DNA of 64,000 nt, taken from an uncultured Porphyromonadaceae bacterium. Lineage in GTDB: Bacteria; Bacteroidota; Bacteroidia; Bacteroidales; Muribaculaceae. A program made the position numbers and the translations under genes. Within the stretch, counting starts at the first letter, position 1. The number at the start of each line of letters is the position of its first letter. Positions 47,781 to 55,544 of this stretch are shown piece after piece. The notes under the pieces are model-generated. The model was given only the letters and a program-made list of their open reading frames with translations, searched no databases and was not told the DNA's origin. The stretch covers positions 1 to 64,000 of the forward strand of contig CANPGB010000009.1 of assembly GCA_947573485.1 (NCBI GenBank), given 5' to 3'.

Positions 47781-49601
47781 TTATAATGTGTCGAGTATGG
47801 TATAGATGGTTTGTAGATAAGCTGCTGCGCTGTCGGCGGGTGCACTGTCGGTGTCGGCAGTGCCGTGTACTGCTGTAGAGCTCTCGGTGACAAGGCCGTA
47901 GTATGAGGGAGTGCTGAAAAATGCGTGCTTGGGAGCCGAGGGGCTCAGTACGTCTTTGCTGAACGCGAACCCGCTGTGGTCTATGCCGAGTTGGGCAAGA
48001 AGCGTTGCCACAATGTCGGTCTGGGCGGCGACGCTGTCAACCCGCAGGCCATGCCGGGCGAGTGCTCCGCCGGTGAGAACGAAAGGTATGCGGTGCCGCT
48101 CGGGGCCTTCGGGCAGATTCTGCGGGTATGCGCCGTAGTGGTCGGGTACTATGGCCACTATGCTGCGGTCGTAGCGGCCGCTCGCTTTCAGCCCGTTAAG
48201 AAAAGCAGTGAGGCAACTGTCGGTATATGCAAAGGCATTGCAGCGGGCATCGCTGTGACCCGAAGTGAACGGCACCTCAAAAGGCTCATGGCTGCTCGAG
48301 GTCTGTATAACCTTGAACTGCGGGGCAGCCTCAGGCGAAATGCTGAGAGCGTCGGCAAGCGCACGCCCGAACACAAGGTGGTCGTGGGCGCCCCACTTGC
48401 TTGTGCGTTCGGCAACGGGGAAGTCTTTGTCGCACACTATCTGCCCGAAGCCGCAGCTCTTGAGGTAGGCGCGCATGTTGGTGAAGTCGGCGTCGCCGCC
48501 GTAGTAATATTCCGCTTCCCAGCCGGCGTCTTTAAGCGAGCGGGGCAGCGAGGGCAGTTTCTCGAATTTCGAGGTGAATTTCAGCAGACTCGTGCCCGGT
48601 TGGGCGGGGAAAGCGCTGAGAATAGCGGGCAGCGCGCGGTCGGTGCGGAAACTCGAGGCATACATGTTGCTGAACAATACACCGTCGGCCGCAACAGAGT
48701 CGAGGCCCGTAGCCACGGCTTCGCCCCCGAGTGAGGGCAGCAGGTGGCTCGAAAAGCTTTCGAGGATAACGAGGTAGATGTCTGGGCGTGAGGTGCTGAA
48801 GAGCGTGTCGGCGGGCGAGCATTCGCCTTTGTCGGCGAGGGCGTCCATTATTGCCTCACACTCGGCGTCGGGCATAAAGCGGTACTGACTACCGAAATCG
48901 GCCTGATGTGCGGCAGAGTAGAGGAGGCTGAACACCGGGTTGACAGCCGCGTGGTTCAACAGGCGGTCCTCACTGAAATATGCGCGGCTGAGGTTCATGG
49001 TCGATACCGTAACGCCTCCTCGAATAGCAAGGAAAAGCAGCCCTAAGGCGAGGATTCCCGCGCAACTCACCTTGATGCGGCTCCCGCGCGTGCCTGCCTG
49101 CCCCCGCCGGGTGAGTCGCGTAACCCACATCAGCGCTGCAAAAATAAGAGCTGCAAACACAGCTATAGCCGCTATGCCGCCTATAGCCTCGCCGATACCG
49201 GCGCTTGCCATTGCCGCCGAGGGCGACGATGTGAAGTAGAACACAGGAGTCATGTCGAGCGGGAACTCCCAGTAGCCGTAAAGCCCTAAATTGAGAGCTG
49301 CGGTAGCCGAAAGGGCAAGTGCCGACATGGCATAATAAACATACGCAAGCACCTTGAGAGCCTTGCCGCCCCCGAGCCATAGGCACGCTATGGCTGCAAG
49401 TGCCGGTATGGCAGTGAGATAGCCTGCAACAGCCATGTCCATGGGCAAGCCCGCAAGCATCACGTCGGCAAAATCGCCAAACCCGGGCTTCGCCTGCGCC
49501 AACGACCCGTAGAGCCACAGAAACACAGGCTTCTGTAGCACCCCGGCCACGGTATAGACCCCGAAAATTGCGGCGATATATGCTAAAACCTTGCGGTACA
49601 T
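47781..49601 (-). CDS. LTA-synthase-like sulfatase-fold membrane enzyme
   Basis: A 606-aa protein with about five N-terminal membrane helices (to residue 210) and a large periplasmic alkaline-phosphatase-fold domain. Catalytic marks: DIYLVILESFSSHLLPSLGG with the metal Glu, the nucleophile Thr in SSFRTDRALP (near 320), KWGAHDHLVFG, and IVPDHYGAYPQ. In Gram-negative bacteria such enzymes add phosphoglycerol or phosphoethanolamine to glycans or lipids. The acceptor here is unknown. I take the ATG at 49601 (MYRKVLAYIAA); the frame continues 16 codons upstream through the probable promoter (TATTTTTG, minus 49634-49627). Confidence 0.92.
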   Translation of the reverse strand: MYRKVLAYIAAIFGVYTVAGVLQKPVFLWLYGSLAQAKPGFGDFADVMLAGLPMDMAVAGYLTAIPALAAIACLWLGGGKALKVLAYVYYAMSALALSATAALNLGLYGYWEFPLDMTPVFYFTSSPSAAMASAGIGEAIGGIAAIAVFAALIFAALMWVTRLTRRGQAGTRGSRIKVSCAGILALGLLFLAIRGGVTVSTMNLSRAYFSEDRLLNHAAVNPVFSLLYSAAHQADFGSQYRFMPDAECEAIMDALADKGECSPADTLFSTSRPDIYLVILESFSSHLLPSLGGEAVATGLDSVAADGVLFSNMYASSFRTDRALPAILSAFPAQPGTSLLKFTSKFEKLPSLPRSLKDAGWEAEYYYGGDADFTNMRAYLKSCGFGQIVCDKDFPVAERTSKWGAHDHLVFGRALADALSISPEAAPQFKVIQTSSSHEPFEVPFTSGHSDARCNAFAYTDSCLTAFLNGLKASGRYDRSIVAIVPDHYGAYPQNLPEGPERHRIPFVLTGGALARHGLRVDSVAAQTDIVATLLAQLGIDHSGFAFSKDVLSPSAPKHAFFSTPSYYGLVTESSTAVHGTADTDSAPADSAAAYLQTIYTILDTL

Positions 49602-49739
49602 GATGAGAGATTGGCTGTTTTGTCTGCAAAAATAGCAAAAATCTCGCAATTATCGCTGCCCCTTATCTTTCCTTAACACATACACACTGTTGTTGCTTGC
49701 TATTATTTTGATATCCCTGCACAATCTTCATTAGGTTTT

Positions 49740-49770
49740 TTTGCATCTTCAAAAAAAATAGCTAATTTTG
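49740..49770 (+). promoter_or_regulatory. promoter of the Rhs-core/lipase island
   Basis: TTTG at 49740-49743, 19 nt, TAATTTTG at 49763-49770, with the first ATG at 49820. It is the only clear promoter in 49602-52627, so the three plus-strand genes are probably one operon. Confidence 0.65.
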
Positions 49771-49819
49771 CAAACGATGCTATTTTAGTTGTTTATCTCA
49801 TGACCTAAGTCTACATATT

Positions 49820-50732
49820 ATGAAAAAATCAGTTCTTGTCATTGTCCTTTTCATAGGCACTTTGTCGTTGTGGTGCCGTGATAGGGGTGTGAAATACTAC
49901 CTCCCTAATGACTTCGTGACTTATGATAGTTTACCATATATGGTTTACGACCAATTCTTTGAAGAAGCCTATACAGAGATAGCAGGAATGATTGACGGAT
50001 TATATCCATAATAAGGTTGCACCTAATTTTGCTCTTTTTGAGTTCTTTACTAAGCCATGTGAGTTGAACAATAATAAAATCTTTACCTATGACTTCGACA
50101 ATGCTTTCGGAGATGAAGATTTTACAGTGTTTTTTGCTTCAAGAGTACTGTCTACGCATAAAGGGCAATGCTTTTCCATGCCCTTGTTGTATAAGATTTT
50201 ATGTGATGAACTTGGTGGAGGCTCTTTTCTGGCACTCGCACCGATGCATATGTATATCAAGCATATAGGAGAGGAGGGCGGTTGGGTAAATGTCGAACTG
50301 ACCCATGGAGGTTTTGTCCGGGACGTTTGGATTATAGAACAACATAATGTTTCGACAGAAGCTATAAGGAACGGAGTTTTCATGTGCGCTCTCAGTCCTA
50401 TCGAAGAAATTTCTCTGATGCTTGCGCAGTTGTGTAGGACATATTATGCCAAATATAAGAGTTACGATTACTTCATAGAGCGAGGCGTGAATAAGGTACT
50501 TAGCCATTTACCTCATTTCTGCGAAGCTTTGGCTTTGAAACATAACCTATTGTATGAGCAATGCCTTATGTTTCTTAATAAGTATGGAGAAATCGATTCG
50601 CTTCATGGCAGCTTTATGTTAGCGCAGTTGCGTACGACTTTTGACTTGCTTAATCATCTCGGTTATTCTTTTCTAAATATCGAGGAAGTAGCGGCACGCT
50701 TAGCTGAAAATAAACGTTTATATCAAAAATAA
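49820..50732 (+). pseudogene. secreted transglutaminase-like protein split by a 1-nt frameshift
   Basis: From ATG 49820 the protein has a signal peptide (MKKSVLVIVLFIGTLSLWC) and stops at 50009-50011. Deleting one G at 49997-49998 joins it to the next frame as MIDDYIHNKVAPNF and gives about 303 aa. The downstream frame alone would need a TTG start and would lose the signal. It carries a transglutaminase-like core: Cys in KGQCFSMPLLYKIL, ALAPMHMYIKH, and WVNVELTHGG with a candidate catalytic His. This is the papain-like or SirB1-type pattern seen in many Bacteroidales secreted proteins. It is AT-richer than its flanks. It precedes the Rhs-core/lipase gene by 5 nt. Sequencing error versus true lesion cannot be decided here. 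Confidence 0.72.
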
Positions 50733-50737
50733 ATAGG

Positions 50738-51790
50738 ATGAAAAAGTTCTGTTTACTTTTATTATTGCTGGCTATCGTAAATTCGATGGATGCGGCTGAT
50801 AACGAGAGCCCTTATGCGCTTTTCGGAGATGTAACACCAATTCTTGATGTTTGCCCAAAATCGGAAGAAAACCAGTGCACCCTCACAGTTATTATTGGAG
50901 ATTCTGTACATGCACGTCTTGAATTGCATGGAGATTATCTTCTGGCAATTGATTGCAGTGGCGATACTATTGGTTCTGTTCATGTCAATAGAGCCGCGAA
51001 AGCTTCATTTCTGTCAATAGATCCAAGAGCAGGAGAAATGCCTCGGGTGTCCCCTTATGCGTTTTGTTTTGCAAATCCTGTTAATTTCGTAGACAATAAT
51101 GGGTTAGAGCCAACGGCAACAGAAGGTGCGTTAATGTCTCTCGTAGTATATAGGGATCCAAATGAGAAAGAATTGTACAACTTTGCCGTAGATCAACTAA
51201 AAAAAACCGGGTGGGGAATTTCACTTCCACCTGGCACAAACCTTTTACCATTAAAAAAAGGAGAGTCACCACGCCCCATGCTCTTTGAAAGAACTAATTC
51301 AGATGGACGCACTGAGTATGCGCTTGCATATGCCGGAACTGTAAACTACAAGGACGTAATTCAAGATGTATTTCAATTAGTTGGTTTATCACCACTCTAT
51401 GCAGAAGGTATTAAAGACGCCCGGAATCTTTCTGCTATGCTTGGCGAAAATGTGGAGCTTACTTTTGTCGGGCACTCATTAGGAGCAGGTAGAGCAGCCG
51501 CTGCGAGCATGGCCACCGGTCGAAAGGCTTTGTGCTATAATCCTGCGGCAGTCAGCCCGGCAACCAAGCAATTCAATAATCTTGGAAGCGATGTCAATAT
51601 AACAAATTATAGAATTGTCCCGTCAGGCACAGGACAGATACGTATGGGTGGATGCCTGATTAATAACTTTCAGGATAATCTCGGCATGCCTGCTCCCGGG
51701 ACAACTATTTGTTTACCCATGCCAATAAGCAATCCTTTGAGGGCTCATGGAATCGCTAATTTTATTGACTTCTTTTTTAACGGTCGCTGA
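50738..51790 (+). CDS. secreted Rhs-core remnant fused to a GHSLG lipase domain (candidate toxin)
   Basis: A 350-aa exported protein (signal MKKFCLLLLLLAIVNSMDAA). Residues about 90-122 (SFLSIDPRAGEMPRVSPYAF, then CFANPVNFVDNNGLEP) match the C-terminal end of the RHS repeat-associated core, which normally closes a large shell protein just before a toxin. Here the shell is absent. The core's closing DPxG is DNNG and the first DPxG is missing, so self-cleavage is doubtful. The rest (about 125-350) is an alpha/beta hydrolase of the class 3 lipase type: nucleophile Ser in FVGHSLGAGRAAAAS (near 247) and a C-terminal His in NPLRAHGIANFIDFF (near 335). The acidic residue is unclear. A phospholipase effector or orphan toxin is my inference. 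Confidence 0.75.
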   Translation: MKKFCLLLLLLAIVNSMDAADNESPYALFGDVTPILDVCPKSEENQCTLTVIIGDSVHARLELHGDYLLAIDCSGDTIGSVHVNRAAKASFLSIDPRAGEMPRVSPYAFCFANPVNFVDNNGLEPTATEGALMSLVVYRDPNEKELYNFAVDQLKKTGWGISLPPGTNLLPLKKGESPRPMLFERTNSDGRTEYALAYAGTVNYKDVIQDVFQLVGLSPLYAEGIKDARNLSAMLGENVELTFVGHSLGAGRAAAASMATGRKALCYNPAAVSPATKQFNNLGSDVNITNYRIVPSGTGQIRMGGCLINNFQDNLGMPAPGTTICLPMPISNPLRAHGIANFIDFFFNGR

Positions 51791-51807
51791 CTTTCTAATA
51801 TATTCTT

Positions 51808-52545
51808 ATGAAATTATCATTCGCATTAATTTGGCGCCGCTTTATCAAAATAATAACACTTGGCATAATCCTCTTTACATTGAAGGGTTGCTTTGGCTTA
51901 TACTACTCCGAAATGTCGCATATGTGGCCGGGCGAATTGAAATGGACTGAAAACGTACGTAACAACATATTGCCTAATTGCATAGACGATATCATAAGAA
52001 TAAATGGGGGACCAATAAGGGGTACGTCTATCAAGTTCATATCTGATTCGGCGTCAACCTCTACTCTAAGAATCCTATCTTTTTGGAAATCCAATTCTTT
52101 AAATCCTTTTGTATTTAGTTTCCAGCATAGCGATATATATATTGCCAATTCTTCGTATGATTTCGTAATTAAAGGTTCTAAAGCCGACCTGGAAGGACGC
52201 TTTGCAATTTTCAAGGATATTGATAACGGCGATTTGGAAGTCTCTGCACGATTGGGAAACCTGCAGGCAGGGAGCCGATATGTGGCCCGGTTTCCTGATT
52301 CTATCGCAAAACCTTATATAATAGCGGAAAATCTTAGCTCTTTTTCTGTCGGAGGTAAAGTGTTAGACAATTGCCTTGTGTTCGATAAGAGCAATTCTCA
52401 GCCGTATGAATACATGCAGGCGGGAGATAGTGTGCTGGTAGATAAATTTGTTATCTCTCGCGACTTCGGTCCTGTATATTACCGCTTGGTGACGGGCGAG
52501 GAATTTTTCAGAGATTTTGCGTCGGACTCCGCCGGTAGAGATTAA
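51808..52545 (+). CDS. lipoprotein of unknown function, candidate immunity partner
   Basis: A 245-aa exported protein with a basic then hydrophobic start (LIWRRFIKIITLGIILFTLK) and lipobox LKGC at residue 27, so it is anchored in the envelope. I recognise no domain in the rest; it is rich in beta-forming stretches and ends DFASDSAGRD. It follows the lipase gene by 17 nt in the same AT-richer island and has the position and cellular location of lipoproteins that protect against periplasmic phospholipase effectors. This role is inference from position alone. Confidence 0.7.
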   Translation: MKLSFALIWRRFIKIITLGIILFTLKGCFGLYYSEMSHMWPGELKWTENVRNNILPNCIDDIIRINGGPIRGTSIKFISDSASTSTLRILSFWKSNSLNPFVFSFQHSDIYIANSSYDFVIKGSKADLEGRFAIFKDIDNGDLEVSARLGNLQAGSRYVARFPDSIAKPYIIAENLSSFSVGGKVLDNCLVFDKSNSQPYEYMQAGDSVLVDKFVISRDFGPVYYRLVTGEEFFRDFASDSAGRD

Positions 52546-52558
52546 ACTCTAAACGTGC

Positions 52559-52605
52559 GAAAAATACACAGCCCACGGCTGAGATTGATTCAGACGTGGG
52601 CTGTG
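52559..52605 (-). terminator. terminator between the convergent island and receptor genes
   Basis: CACAGCCCACG (52567-52577) pairs perfectly with 52595-52605. On the minus strand TATTTTT follows. It ends the receptor gene and may also stop the island transcript. Confidence 0.85.
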
Positions 52606-52626
52606 AGTGTGCATGGATTGTATGAG

Positions 52627-55452
52627 TTATCGTCCGGGAGGAGGGCCGCCGTGACCACCGCCCGGAGGCGGACCCATGGGCCCGCGGCCTCGCCACGCGT
52701 TACGGTCGGTGGGCTGGTTGCCCTTGCCGAAGGTGTTGAACTTCCAGCTCAGGGTCACCATAAAGTAGCGGGTGAGCGAGTTGTAGCGTTCGTCGCTGAT
52801 GTAGTTGGCTGTCACATTGCGGCGTACGTTTGACTTCTGGCCGAGGAGGTCGTAGGCTTTGAGCGAGACAGTCATCGAGCGGTCGCGCAGGAACTGGTAG
52901 GCGAGTGAGGCGTTCCACATCCATGTGCGGGTATCGTAGCCTGCCGAGTAACCCGAGGTGGCCGAGTAGTTGAGGTCGGTGCTTATCGTTACCCCTATAG
53001 GCGTTGTGTAGTTGCCGTAGAAGGTGCCTCCGTAGGTGTGTACCGAGCGGTTGGAGCCTTTCTGTACGGTGTTCGCCACGTTCTGGAAGTTGTAGTTCGG
53101 CCTGAGCTCGAGCGAGAGGTTGTCGGGGCGCCATGCCGCGCCGAGCGATTCGCCTATCATGAACGAGCCCGAGCGGTTGCGCTCGCCGTTGTTGAAACCT
53201 ATGGTGTTGGAGTACGAGAGGAAGAGGTGGTTGGTGAACGTGAACGTCTTGTTGCGCGGCAGCGGCAGCGAAATCATGTTCATGCCTCGCACGCTCCACA
53301 CGCCGTTGACGTTGGTGTAGGTAGTGCGTTGTGCACCGGTCTGCGGGTCGAAGGTAGTCTGCGAGATAATGGAGTTCTGCTGGAAGTTTCCGTCGAGCAT
53401 TGCCATTATCGAGCGCTGAGCTTTCTGGTCGAAGTCCTGGAAACGCACGTTGAGGCTGTGGGTGAAGGTGGGCTTCAGGTCGGGGTTACCGATAACGATG
53501 TTCATGGGGTTGGAGACATCGGCCACGGGCTGCAACTGCGTCATCGAAGGCTGCGACGAGCGTCCGTTGTAGAACATGTTCATACTCCTGTTCTTGCCGA
53601 ACTTGTAGCGGTAGCGCAGGAAGGGGGCGAAGTTGAGCACATTTCGCTTTGGTATCGACTTGTTGTCGTCGATAAGGTTGCGCGACTCACTCATCTGGGG
53701 CACGAGCGACACGCCCACGTTGAGGTTGCCGTTCTTGGTCACGCGGCGGTAGCCAAGGCGTACATCCTGGCTCATGTAGTCGTTGCGGAAGCGGTTCGAG
53801 AGCTCGGGGTCGTAGATAGGGTCGGGGTCTATTATAATGGGGCCGTCCCATCCTTCGGGGAAGCTTATGGGGTAGTCGTAGGTGAGCTTGTCGGCATTGT
53901 TCCAGCGGTACGAGAAGTTGTACGATAGGGTCAGAAAGTGACCTTTGGAAACATCGCCGAGGGGCTCAGTCCAGCTTGCGCGTGCGCTCACGGTGTTGCT
54001 CCACGTGTGGTTGTCGGCCCACTGGTCGTAGGCGTCGACAGAGTCGTTGAGCAAGAAGAAGCGGTTGAAGGAGTAGGTGGTGGCGTCTTCGCGCACGTTG
54101 CTCATGCGGTAGTTCATCATAAGCGAGAACGAGCGGCCGCGGCGTGCCTTGAAGTTGTGGTTGTATATAAGGCGCCCGCCGAACTCGAAGGAGTGGCCGT
54201 CGGAGCTGCCGCGGTTAATGCTTCGGGTAACCTCGGTATTGGCGGCATTGCCGGCGAAGGTGCTCGAGGAGTCGCTTGATGCCGAGTTATTGTAGTTGAG
54301 CGAGATGTTGGGGCGGAACTCGAGGGTATTGAAGCTGTCGGGCTTCCATATCATGCGGAAGTCGGCGCGGAAGTTGTGGCCCTTGTCGCGCGAGAGCGAG
54401 CGTGCCGTGGTTGTTGAGCTCGAGTCGCTGAAGAGGTACATCTTTTCCGACGAGGTGCGGGTGTCGCGGTCGGTGTGGCTGTACATCACGTCGCCGCCAA
54501 TGCGGAATATCTCTTTATTGCCAACGTTGAAGTTGATGCCGAACGACTGCGAGTTGGTTATGCCGTTGCTGCCGCCGAAGCGCCTGAAGCGGCCCGAGGC
54601 ACCGTCGGCGAAGCCGGGCTCATTGATGTTGTTGGCCGAGCCGAGGAAGGTTATCTGGTTGTCGTTCCAGAAGCGGTTGATGTTGAAGTTGCCTTTATAA
54701 CGGCCGTCGGTGCCGTAACCGCCCTCCATGTTGCCGAACCAACCGTTCTTCATGTCTTTCTTCACCGTGAGGTTGATCACGGTCTCGTCCTCGCCGTCGT
54801 CAACGCCGGTGAGGCGTGCGAGGTCGCTCTTGCGGTCGACTACCTGCAGTTTGTCTACCATATCCACGGGCAGGTTGCGCGAGGCAACGGTGGGGTCGTC
54901 GCTGAAGAACTCCTTGCCGTCGACAAGGATTTTGGTCACTTCTTTACCGTTGGCGGTGATTTTGCCTTCCGACGACACCTCTACGCCTGGCAGGCGCTTG
55001 AGGAGGTCTTCCACAACGGCATTAGGCTGCGTGCGGTAGGCATCGGCGGCAAACTCCACCGTGTCTTCCATAACTTTTACCGGGGTGCGTATTCCCACTA
55101 CCGTGGCCTCTTTGAGCATGATAGAACTTTCGCTGAGGGCGAAAGGCTCGAGGCGCAGGTCTTTGTCGGCCATGGTCACGTTGCGGGTCTGGGGGTCGTA
55201 GCCTACATACGAGGCTTCGACAATATACTTGCCCGGCGACAGGCCTGCTATGGCAAACCGTCCTTGGGTGTTGGTTACTGCCCCTTTTACAAGGGATGAA
55301 TCTTTGGCGGCGAGAATCCTGACGGAGGCCTGGATAAGTTCTTCGCCGGTGGATGAGTCTTTGACGCTTCCACGAAGCGTGGCGGCCATCACGGTCGCCA
55401 CGCTCGGGAATGCAAAAACCATCAAAACAATAAGTTTAATCAATTCTCTCAT
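52627..55452 (-). CDS. TonB-dependent-receptor-like outer-membrane beta-barrel protein
   Basis: A 941-aa outer-membrane protein. Signal peptide (MRELIKLIVLMVFAFPSVAT), carboxypeptidase-like domain (about 25-105, LRGSVKDSSTGEELIQASVR), and a plug-like domain (NAVVEDLLKRLPGVEVSSEG, ITANGKEVTKILVDGKEFFS). A long barrel follows with many aromatic beta strands. It belongs to the outer-membrane beta-barrel group that lacks a SusD partner. The last 25 residues are a Gly/Pro/Arg tail (GPMGPPPGGGHGGPPPGR) after the usual barrel-closing strand. The ATG at 55452 is chosen for the signal peptide. Cargo unknown. Confidence 0.9.
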   Translation of the reverse strand: MRELIKLIVLMVFAFPSVATVMAATLRGSVKDSSTGEELIQASVRILAAKDSSLVKGAVTNTQGRFAIAGLSPGKYIVEASYVGYDPQTRNVTMADKDLRLEPFALSESSIMLKEATVVGIRTPVKVMEDTVEFAADAYRTQPNAVVEDLLKRLPGVEVSSEGKITANGKEVTKILVDGKEFFSDDPTVASRNLPVDMVDKLQVVDRKSDLARLTGVDDGEDETVINLTVKKDMKNGWFGNMEGGYGTDGRYKGNFNINRFWNDNQITFLGSANNINEPGFADGASGRFRRFGGSNGITNSQSFGINFNVGNKEIFRIGGDVMYSHTDRDTRTSSEKMYLFSDSSSTTTARSLSRDKGHNFRADFRMIWKPDSFNTLEFRPNISLNYNNSASSDSSSTFAGNAANTEVTRSINRGSSDGHSFEFGGRLIYNHNFKARRGRSFSLMMNYRMSNVREDATTYSFNRFFLLNDSVDAYDQWADNHTWSNTVSARASWTEPLGDVSKGHFLTLSYNFSYRWNNADKLTYDYPISFPEGWDGPIIIDPDPIYDPELSNRFRNDYMSQDVRLGYRRVTKNGNLNVGVSLVPQMSESRNLIDDNKSIPKRNVLNFAPFLRYRYKFGKNRSMNMFYNGRSSQPSMTQLQPVADVSNPMNIVIGNPDLKPTFTHSLNVRFQDFDQKAQRSIMAMLDGNFQQNSIISQTTFDPQTGAQRTTYTNVNGVWSVRGMNMISLPLPRNKTFTFTNHLFLSYSNTIGFNNGERNRSGSFMIGESLGAAWRPDNLSLELRPNYNFQNVANTVQKGSNRSVHTYGGTFYGNYTTPIGVTISTDLNYSATSGYSAGYDTRTWMWNASLAYQFLRDRSMTVSLKAYDLLGQKSNVRRNVTANYISDERYNSLTRYFMVTLSWKFNTFGKGNQPTDRNAWRGRGPMGPPPGGGHGGPPPGR

Positions 55453-55461
55453 TTTCGAAAG

Positions 55462-55469
55462 CAAAGTTA
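55462..55469 (-). promoter_or_regulatory. -7 box of the beta-barrel receptor gene
   Basis: TAACTTTG on the minus strand. The -33 position has CTTG in place of TTTG (minus 55493-55490). Confidence 0.45.
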
Positions 55470-55544
55470 GGCAAAATGAGTAGTCCCCGCAAGGGCTTAC
55501 CGACATTTAAGTAAATTTTCCCGAAAAAACCACAATTTTTATCG

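Follow-up and report, generated by a model that had tools for sequence, protein, structure and literature searches.

The analysed window is a stretch of 64,000 nucleotides from an uncultured Porphyromonadaceae bacterium (Muribaculaceae; contig CANPGB010000009.1, positions 1 to 64,000), in which an AT-rich cassette encodes a 350-amino-acid protein that joins a signal peptide and the end of an Rhs core to a lipase domain. It is likely that this protein belongs to a class of polymorphic antibacterial toxins, here called mini-Rhs proteins, which are exported by the general secretion (Sec) pathway across Bacteroidota, are reduced to an Rhs tag and are served in trans by a menin-like cysteine enzyme, the window holding a member with a broken partner gene. 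Comparison of genomes established the architecture, the gene linkage, the toxin exchange, the coupling of toxin and immunity candidate, the insertion of the cassette and the break in the window's partner gene; toxicity, immunity and the partner's substrate are inferred.

The class was described from 77 non-duplicate mini-Rhs proteins encoded at 74 loci. Each begins with a signal peptide, usually followed by an N-domain of about 70 residues. Next come the final 20-35 residues of the Rhs core (SPYxYxxNNPIxxIDPxG), a stretch that in full-length Rhs proteins stands ahead of the self-cleavage site by which the toxin is freed, and then a C-terminal toxin that can be exchanged. Near-invariant positions were limited to the start Met and SPY..P....D..G, and TIGR03696 matched 76 of the 77 members at E ≤ 0.01. 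Members of class A have the N-domain, which is common to proteins from different orders, and those of class B (Muribaculaceae and some others) run from the signal peptide directly to SPYSYCGGDPINCVDPTG. Since 75 of the 77 proteins are shorter than 400 amino acids, and the window protein has 350, there is no room for a YD-repeat shell. The partner, N-domain, tag (436-471) and toxin were found fused in one chain at two loci (L140, 691 amino acids; L142, 684 amino acids), each fusion being preceded by another, longer partner gene.

Single linkage divided the toxins into about 36 groups. Pfam matches at E ≤ 0.01 were obtained for Toxin-JAB1 (six proteins), Ntox21 (two) and Peptidase_M10 (two), and once each for Peptidase_M91, Ntox44, DUF4329, LysM and others, so that at least 54 of the 77 proteins are without a Pfam match. 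In 47 pairs, carriers more than 70% identical bore toxins of different groups, a few of these pairs involving truncated or short carriers. Unrelated toxins were observed on carriers close to 90% identical, as in L123/L126 (0.90 over 118 residues), L147/L149 (0.89 over 130), L175/L202 (0.91 over 129) and the two neighbours in L188 (0.86 over 132). The downstream gene followed the toxin, a downstream family being common to 45 of 147 same-group pairs and to 8 of 2554 different-group pairs. By a crude rule for export, the first downstream gene looked exported in 67 of 74 cases, compared with 23 of 65 control open reading frames (ORFs), and in the Ntox21 group (L132, L141) it looked cytoplasmic. 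The same rule classed the toxins as exported, with a signal-like N-terminus, in 72 of 77 cases and the partners in 92 of 113. Judged from sequence, two marks of polymorphic toxins, namely similar carriers with exchangeable unrelated toxins and an adjoining immunity gene matching the toxin, are present, and the toxin-immunity assignment is well supported.

The partner family was surveyed in the genus (49 genomes, queried with four N-termini and the intact upstream protein), where all nine intact partner genes directly precede a short Rhs-tagged gene; the tenth is the broken gene of the window. In G026 (L083) the partner is truncated and the toxin is gone. The family occurred in 22 of 393 genomes of the order, and scanning a single genome for each species yielded 60 loci whose hosts are named, both within Bacteroidales (Muribaculaceae, Bacteroides salyersiae, Leyella, Dysgonomonas, Alistipes, Prevotella, Tannerella) and outside it (Thermoflexibacter, Fulvivirga, Flavobacteriales, Sediminibacterium, Balneola). 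After 14 duplicate loci had been dropped (L114 and L192 being duplicates), 94 of 104 partner genes had a core-bearing ORF within 3.5 kb on the same strand. Five of the ten unlinked genes (L139, L143, L178, L197, L200) run off the available sequence, and that of L171 has a toxin ORF without tag nearby. A search of the phylum detected the partner in 8 of 394 genomes, the window's included, and linkage was found in 7/7 of the further genomes; six of these were new, L277 being the Balneola genome already counted as L179. The class is well supported by comparison and is widespread across Bacteroidota.

Clustering of neighbouring genes revealed no third component that is conserved; its larger groups consisted of immunity families, and one generic gene family was present in six loci and another in five. 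Carriage of the partner by phages or plasmids was rejected: no match was obtained in 50,697 phage records, and the five plasmid records were all rhizobial and matched 40-51% of the query (three named “transglutaminase family protein”, two species groups, one record unannotated). Many operons (L123, L127, L129, L132, L136 and others) contain two partner genes, of about 350 and 450 amino acids, the longer one with an N-terminal extension; the two either flank the toxin or lie together on one side of it. A Muribaculaceae-like pair of partner and toxin was also observed under a Firmicute name (L193, on a 980 kb contig of a record titled as a Lachnoclostridium metagenome-assembled genome), which reflects either a cross-phylum transfer or a misnamed bin.

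In the window protein, the N-domain carries SPYALFGD, the Rhs-core end comprises residues 89-123 and the lipase domain extends from about 126 to 350, with Ser247 and His337. The domain is of Tle6 type, and its best match is a toxin of the type VI secretion system (T6SS). The sequence-only reading of this DNA was confirmed in part as an observation and supported in part as an interpretation. It had proposed a fusion of Rhs core and lipase; the lipase stood, and the core match is partial, with 21.9 bits on TIGR03696 against a curated cut-off of 32.5 and coverage of profile positions 43-76 only.

The product of the next gene gave no Pfam or NCBIfam match at E ≤ 1. The same family lies directly 3' of the lipase in 5/5 mini-Rhs operons (window, L073, L074, L148, L152), which supports the earlier proposal of a self-contained, Sec-exported toxin candidate with an adjoining immunity candidate. 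Three loci whose Rhs tails or shells lack a signal carry a related lipase, and two of them have the family as well, as one copy in L003 and three tandem copies in L004; in the third and most distant (L005) an ankyrin lipoprotein takes its place. The doubt that homologues might always occur without the lipoprotein was thereby removed. The product has an N-terminal membrane anchor; its lipidation is plausible in the window, but lipidation is not general. The family was found at 16 places in 8 of the 49 genomes of the genus, some of them away from any lipase; immunity gene copies away from their toxin are usual. Among the 393 genomes of the order it was detected in one, the window's own, and its spread beyond the genus therefore rests on L148 and L152. 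In L082 (5544-6613) immunity-type genes stand behind a mismatched toxin, and in L270 (1540-2334) an immunity-family gene is fused to an apparent scrap of lipase tail; both were read as traces of toxin replacement. The contig G013:C48 holds L005, a shell-type Rhs with a related lipase followed by Tli6-like ankyrin lipoproteins, and also L076, a mini-Rhs protein with an unrecognised toxin and without partner gene.

The window's transglutaminase gene is, by its similarity, a member of the partner family that accompanies mini-Rhs toxins. Its signal-peptide and catalytic halves are in different frames and about 46 residues of the intact homologues are absent between them; therefore an intact secreted transglutaminase-like protein, as had been claimed with the break overlooked, is not made here unless the assembly is wrong. 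No second copy was found in the window's genome. These two observations are in line with the window copy being a remnant that is defunct or in decay, a lost weapon whose only useful part may now be the immunity gene. The acid residue of the lipase, which could not be pinpointed, and the immunity-family copies away from any lipase in the genus point in the same direction. On the other hand, the frames of toxin and immunity candidate are both intact, and in L152, whose partner gene is intact, the acid column likewise holds Cys. A remnant is thus a possibility to be taken seriously, although we lean against it.

The best match for the predicted fold of the partner is menin, and the list also holds LapG and transglutaminases. 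A C-H-N triad (Cys-His-Asn) was found in 106 of 108 partners. The menin profile PF05053 exceeded its cut-off in 0/21 genomes, with one sub-threshold hit (E = 0.013) that was not at a partner gene; the partner profile retrieved no menin from the PDB sequences at E ≤ 10, and the C93/BTLCP profile gave no hit in nine proteins scanned. Among the enzymes of this fold class, LapG cleaves a surface adhesin. In HvyA, a periplasmic BTLCP, changes of the Cys or His abolish function, and Asn as the third residue keeps it, according to the consulted part of the report (PMC4241560). A partner-family protein of L279 (G743:C201, 2379-3551, minus strand) has a leader much like the toxin N-domain (NPYESIG...), which hints that partner and toxin may share an export or docking signal.

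In the mechanism that we propose, the Sec pathway would export the small toxin without Rhs shell, and the exported partner would act in trans on the Rhs tag or the N-domain, by cleavage or, less likely, crosslinking. This would release or activate the toxin and replace the shell and built-in protease of normal Rhs effectors. In the window, the Tle6-like lipase would act from the periplasmic side on the lipids of the membrane, and a membrane-anchored immunity protein against it would be encoded by the gene that follows. In full Rhs effectors, as the consulted excerpts describe, an aspartyl protease of the shell with two aspartates cuts after PxxxxDPxG[W/L/F] (PMC8765631; see also PMC8636562), and self-cleavage is required for killing by RhsA of P. 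protegens (PMC8765631). An Asp at the distance of the first protease Asp was present in 47 of the 66 mini-Rhs proteins that could be parsed and absent from 19, with 11 unparsed. Processing of the tag in trans is favoured because the tag is kept without a shell and because its exported companion has a C-H-N triad and a fold class including LapG, HvyA tolerating Asn as third residue; the menin-like enzyme probably processes mini-Rhs toxins. A wider claim, that Bacteroidota release or activate toxins by cutting or modifying a shell-less tag in trans with a menin-fold cysteine enzyme, that this enzyme family is a bacterial relative of menin with its catalytic residues intact, and that the menin scaffold may derive from a bacterial toxin-processing enzyme, is rather doubtful at this stage.

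The main rival to such processing is that the partner serves as scaffold, anchor or crosslinker, holding the toxin at the cell surface or tethering it to the envelope. Zhang et al. (2012; PMC3482391) proposed, in the portion of the text consulted, an anchoring role for transglutaminase domains that are inactive and form part of RHS proteins. Human menin is described in the excerpts seen as a scaffold without catalytic Cys (PMC10318531), and menin is the best fold match of the partner. However, a pure scaffold would not need the triad that nearly all partners keep, and the fold list is not limited to menin, as it includes LapG and transglutaminases. We regard this role as somewhat unlikely.

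Several observations weigh against the main reading. The first Asp of the Rhs protease pair is missing from class B proteins, and the partner genes of L122, L128, L133 and L153 are without tagged neighbour in the available sequence. In the window, the partner gene is broken and a search for a second copy in the genome detected none; the TIGR03696 score is under the curated cut-off. The alignment column that holds D in three lipase homologues is C in the window and L152, which leaves the acid residue unassigned. Model confidence was low for the N-domain and the tag, most of residues 21-50 and 91-120 having a pLDDT of about 46-60.

A further explanation, considered very unlikely, is that these proteins are displaced Rhs ends, i.e. 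toxin cassettes orphaned when full Rhs loci recombined and since retained as a reserve, with an incidental signal peptide and a hitch-hiking transglutaminase-like gene. Genuine displaced ends do occur in the genus, where L003 and L004 are Rhs tails that lack a signal but carry the same lipase and immunity family, and L076 lies beside Rhs material without a partner gene. Nevertheless, signal-like N-termini by the crude rule, an N-domain shared across orders, partner linkage and one-chain fusions are unexpected of debris. The displaced end of a former Rhs locus, offered before as an alternative, was rejected as a general explanation, since 77 proteins, spread over several orders, have this short exported layout in common. 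It is also very unlikely that the window protein is no weapon but a lipase secreted for housekeeping or scavenging, with an accessory lipoprotein, because the same carrier bears unrelated toxins including JAB and Ntox21 domains, the best match is a T6SS toxin and the downstream family tracks the toxin.

Delivery was evaluated in 25 of the 31 carrier genomes then known. TssC (PF17541) was absent from the window's genome and present in 1/25 carriers, and T6SS delivery was rejected. SprA was present in 25/25, but carriers only were compared, and the NCBIfam matches of the 77 proteins include no tail family of the type IX secretion system (T9SS), so that the result on T9SS delivery is uninformative.

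The assignment of the host to Muribaculaceae agrees with an inference from G073, a genome of the same family that contains a contig stretch listed under Heminiphilus faecis (L114 and L192). The host genome (Bacteroidales) has a GC content of about 58%, and the cassette genes, all three on the plus strand, range from 38.9 to 43.2% across about 3 kb. In the relative G028 the flanking genes abut, forming an uninterrupted site, and its outer-membrane protein is 84% identical to that of the window. The cassette is therefore an insertion, a call made from this one genome of 14 sites inspected, and the suggestion of an acquired AT-rich island was borne out. No integrase-like frame was found among the ORFs of the cassette and no tRNA in the window; repeats around the cassette were searched and none could be read as a target-site duplication. 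The promoter-like element fits what we take to be the Bacteroides -33/-7 consensus. The inverted repeat is terminator-like on the minus strand only, and promoter and terminator scans of the window gave counts no higher than in shuffles. In another species, G026:C2 (L274/L239) carries an Rhs tail that lacks a signal and bears a related lipase, together with three immunity-family genes in tandem. They lie 3' of the outer-membrane protein gene that also borders the window's cassette, so the spot may be a recurrent landing site.

Table 1. Features of the cassette and its flanks, in window coordinates
Feature	Position	Strand	Remarks
Sulfatase-type gene	47781-49649	minus	cassette flank
AT-rich cassette, whole	49650..52626		inserted between sulfatase-type and outer-membrane protein genes
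Promoter-like element TTTG-N19-TAATTTTG	49740..49770	+	read from sequence
Broken transglutaminase/menin-fold partner gene, 5' piece	49820..50011	+	63 amino acids; signal peptide; matches homologue residues 3-63
Partner gene, 3' piece	49992..50732	+	246 amino acids; other frame; catalytic Cys and His region; homologue residues 110-348, 51%
Mini-Rhs toxin candidate	50738..51790	+	350 amino acids; signal peptide, N-domain, Rhs-core end, Tle6-like lipase
Immunity candidate	51808..52545	+	245 amino acids; N-terminal membrane anchor, possibly lipoprotein
Inverted repeat	52567..52605		16-nt arms, 94% complementary, 7-nt loop; between cassette and convergent outer-membrane protein gene
Outer-membrane protein gene	52627-55506	minus	cassette flank, convergent to cassette

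The mini-Rhs class was compared with known systems. With Tle6-Tli6, a T6SS phospholipase effector and its immunity protein from Enterobacter cloacae (PMC11470151, PDB 7ubz/9cys), the window shares the Tle6-type lipase, but its immunity candidate is not of ankyrin type (no Pfam family at E ≤ 1), and a Sec signal and Rhs tag stand in place of T6SS loading, in a genome without TssC by PF17541. Going by the consulted excerpts, full-length self-cleaving Rhs effectors (P. protegens RhsA, PMC8765631; P. laumondii Rhs1, PMC8636562) have a similar core end with DPxG before the toxin, and many class A proteins also keep the first Asp; unlike them, mini-Rhs proteins have no YD-repeat shell, a Sec signal and a separate partner enzyme. 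The RHS transglutaminase domains of Zhang et al. (2012) also tie an exported transglutaminase fold to Rhs toxins, but the portion consulted describes them as fused domains that have lost catalytic activity and stand ahead of RHS repeat arrays (PMC3482391), whereas the mini-Rhs partner is usually a separate gene, with the triad kept and no repeats. TANFOR toxins are, in the excerpts seen, Bacteroidota proteins with a Sec signal and exchangeable C-terminal toxins, but large and with a TANFOR domain; the word transglutaminase is absent from that paper (PMC7073777). At E ≤ 0.01, the NCBIfam families detected in the 77 proteins did not include the TANFOR profile (TIGR02542). Menin differs from the partner in that no match exists at sequence level and the human protein is a eukaryotic regulator without the Cys, and LapG and HvyA in that the C93/BTLCP profile gave no hit in the proteins scanned. 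The class is apparently undescribed, no description having been found in the literature searched, which excluded most subscription papers and bioRxiv, so that priority is not established; the nearest published systems, as far as the consulted parts extend, are those of Zhang et al. (2012; PMC3482391) and the TANFOR toxins (PMC7073777).

If true, this would add a weapon class to Bacteroidota, including the gut genera and groups Muribaculaceae, Bacteroides, Dysgonomonas, Alistipes and Prevotella, with 24/25 of the tested carrier genomes lacking the T6SS sheath protein TssC. Mini-Rhs proteins may be the smallest natural Rhs unit, in which the role of the core tag becomes testable free of the shell. 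A bacterial enzyme that combines intact catalytic residues with a menin-like predicted fold would also bear on the origin of menin, a human tumour suppressor.
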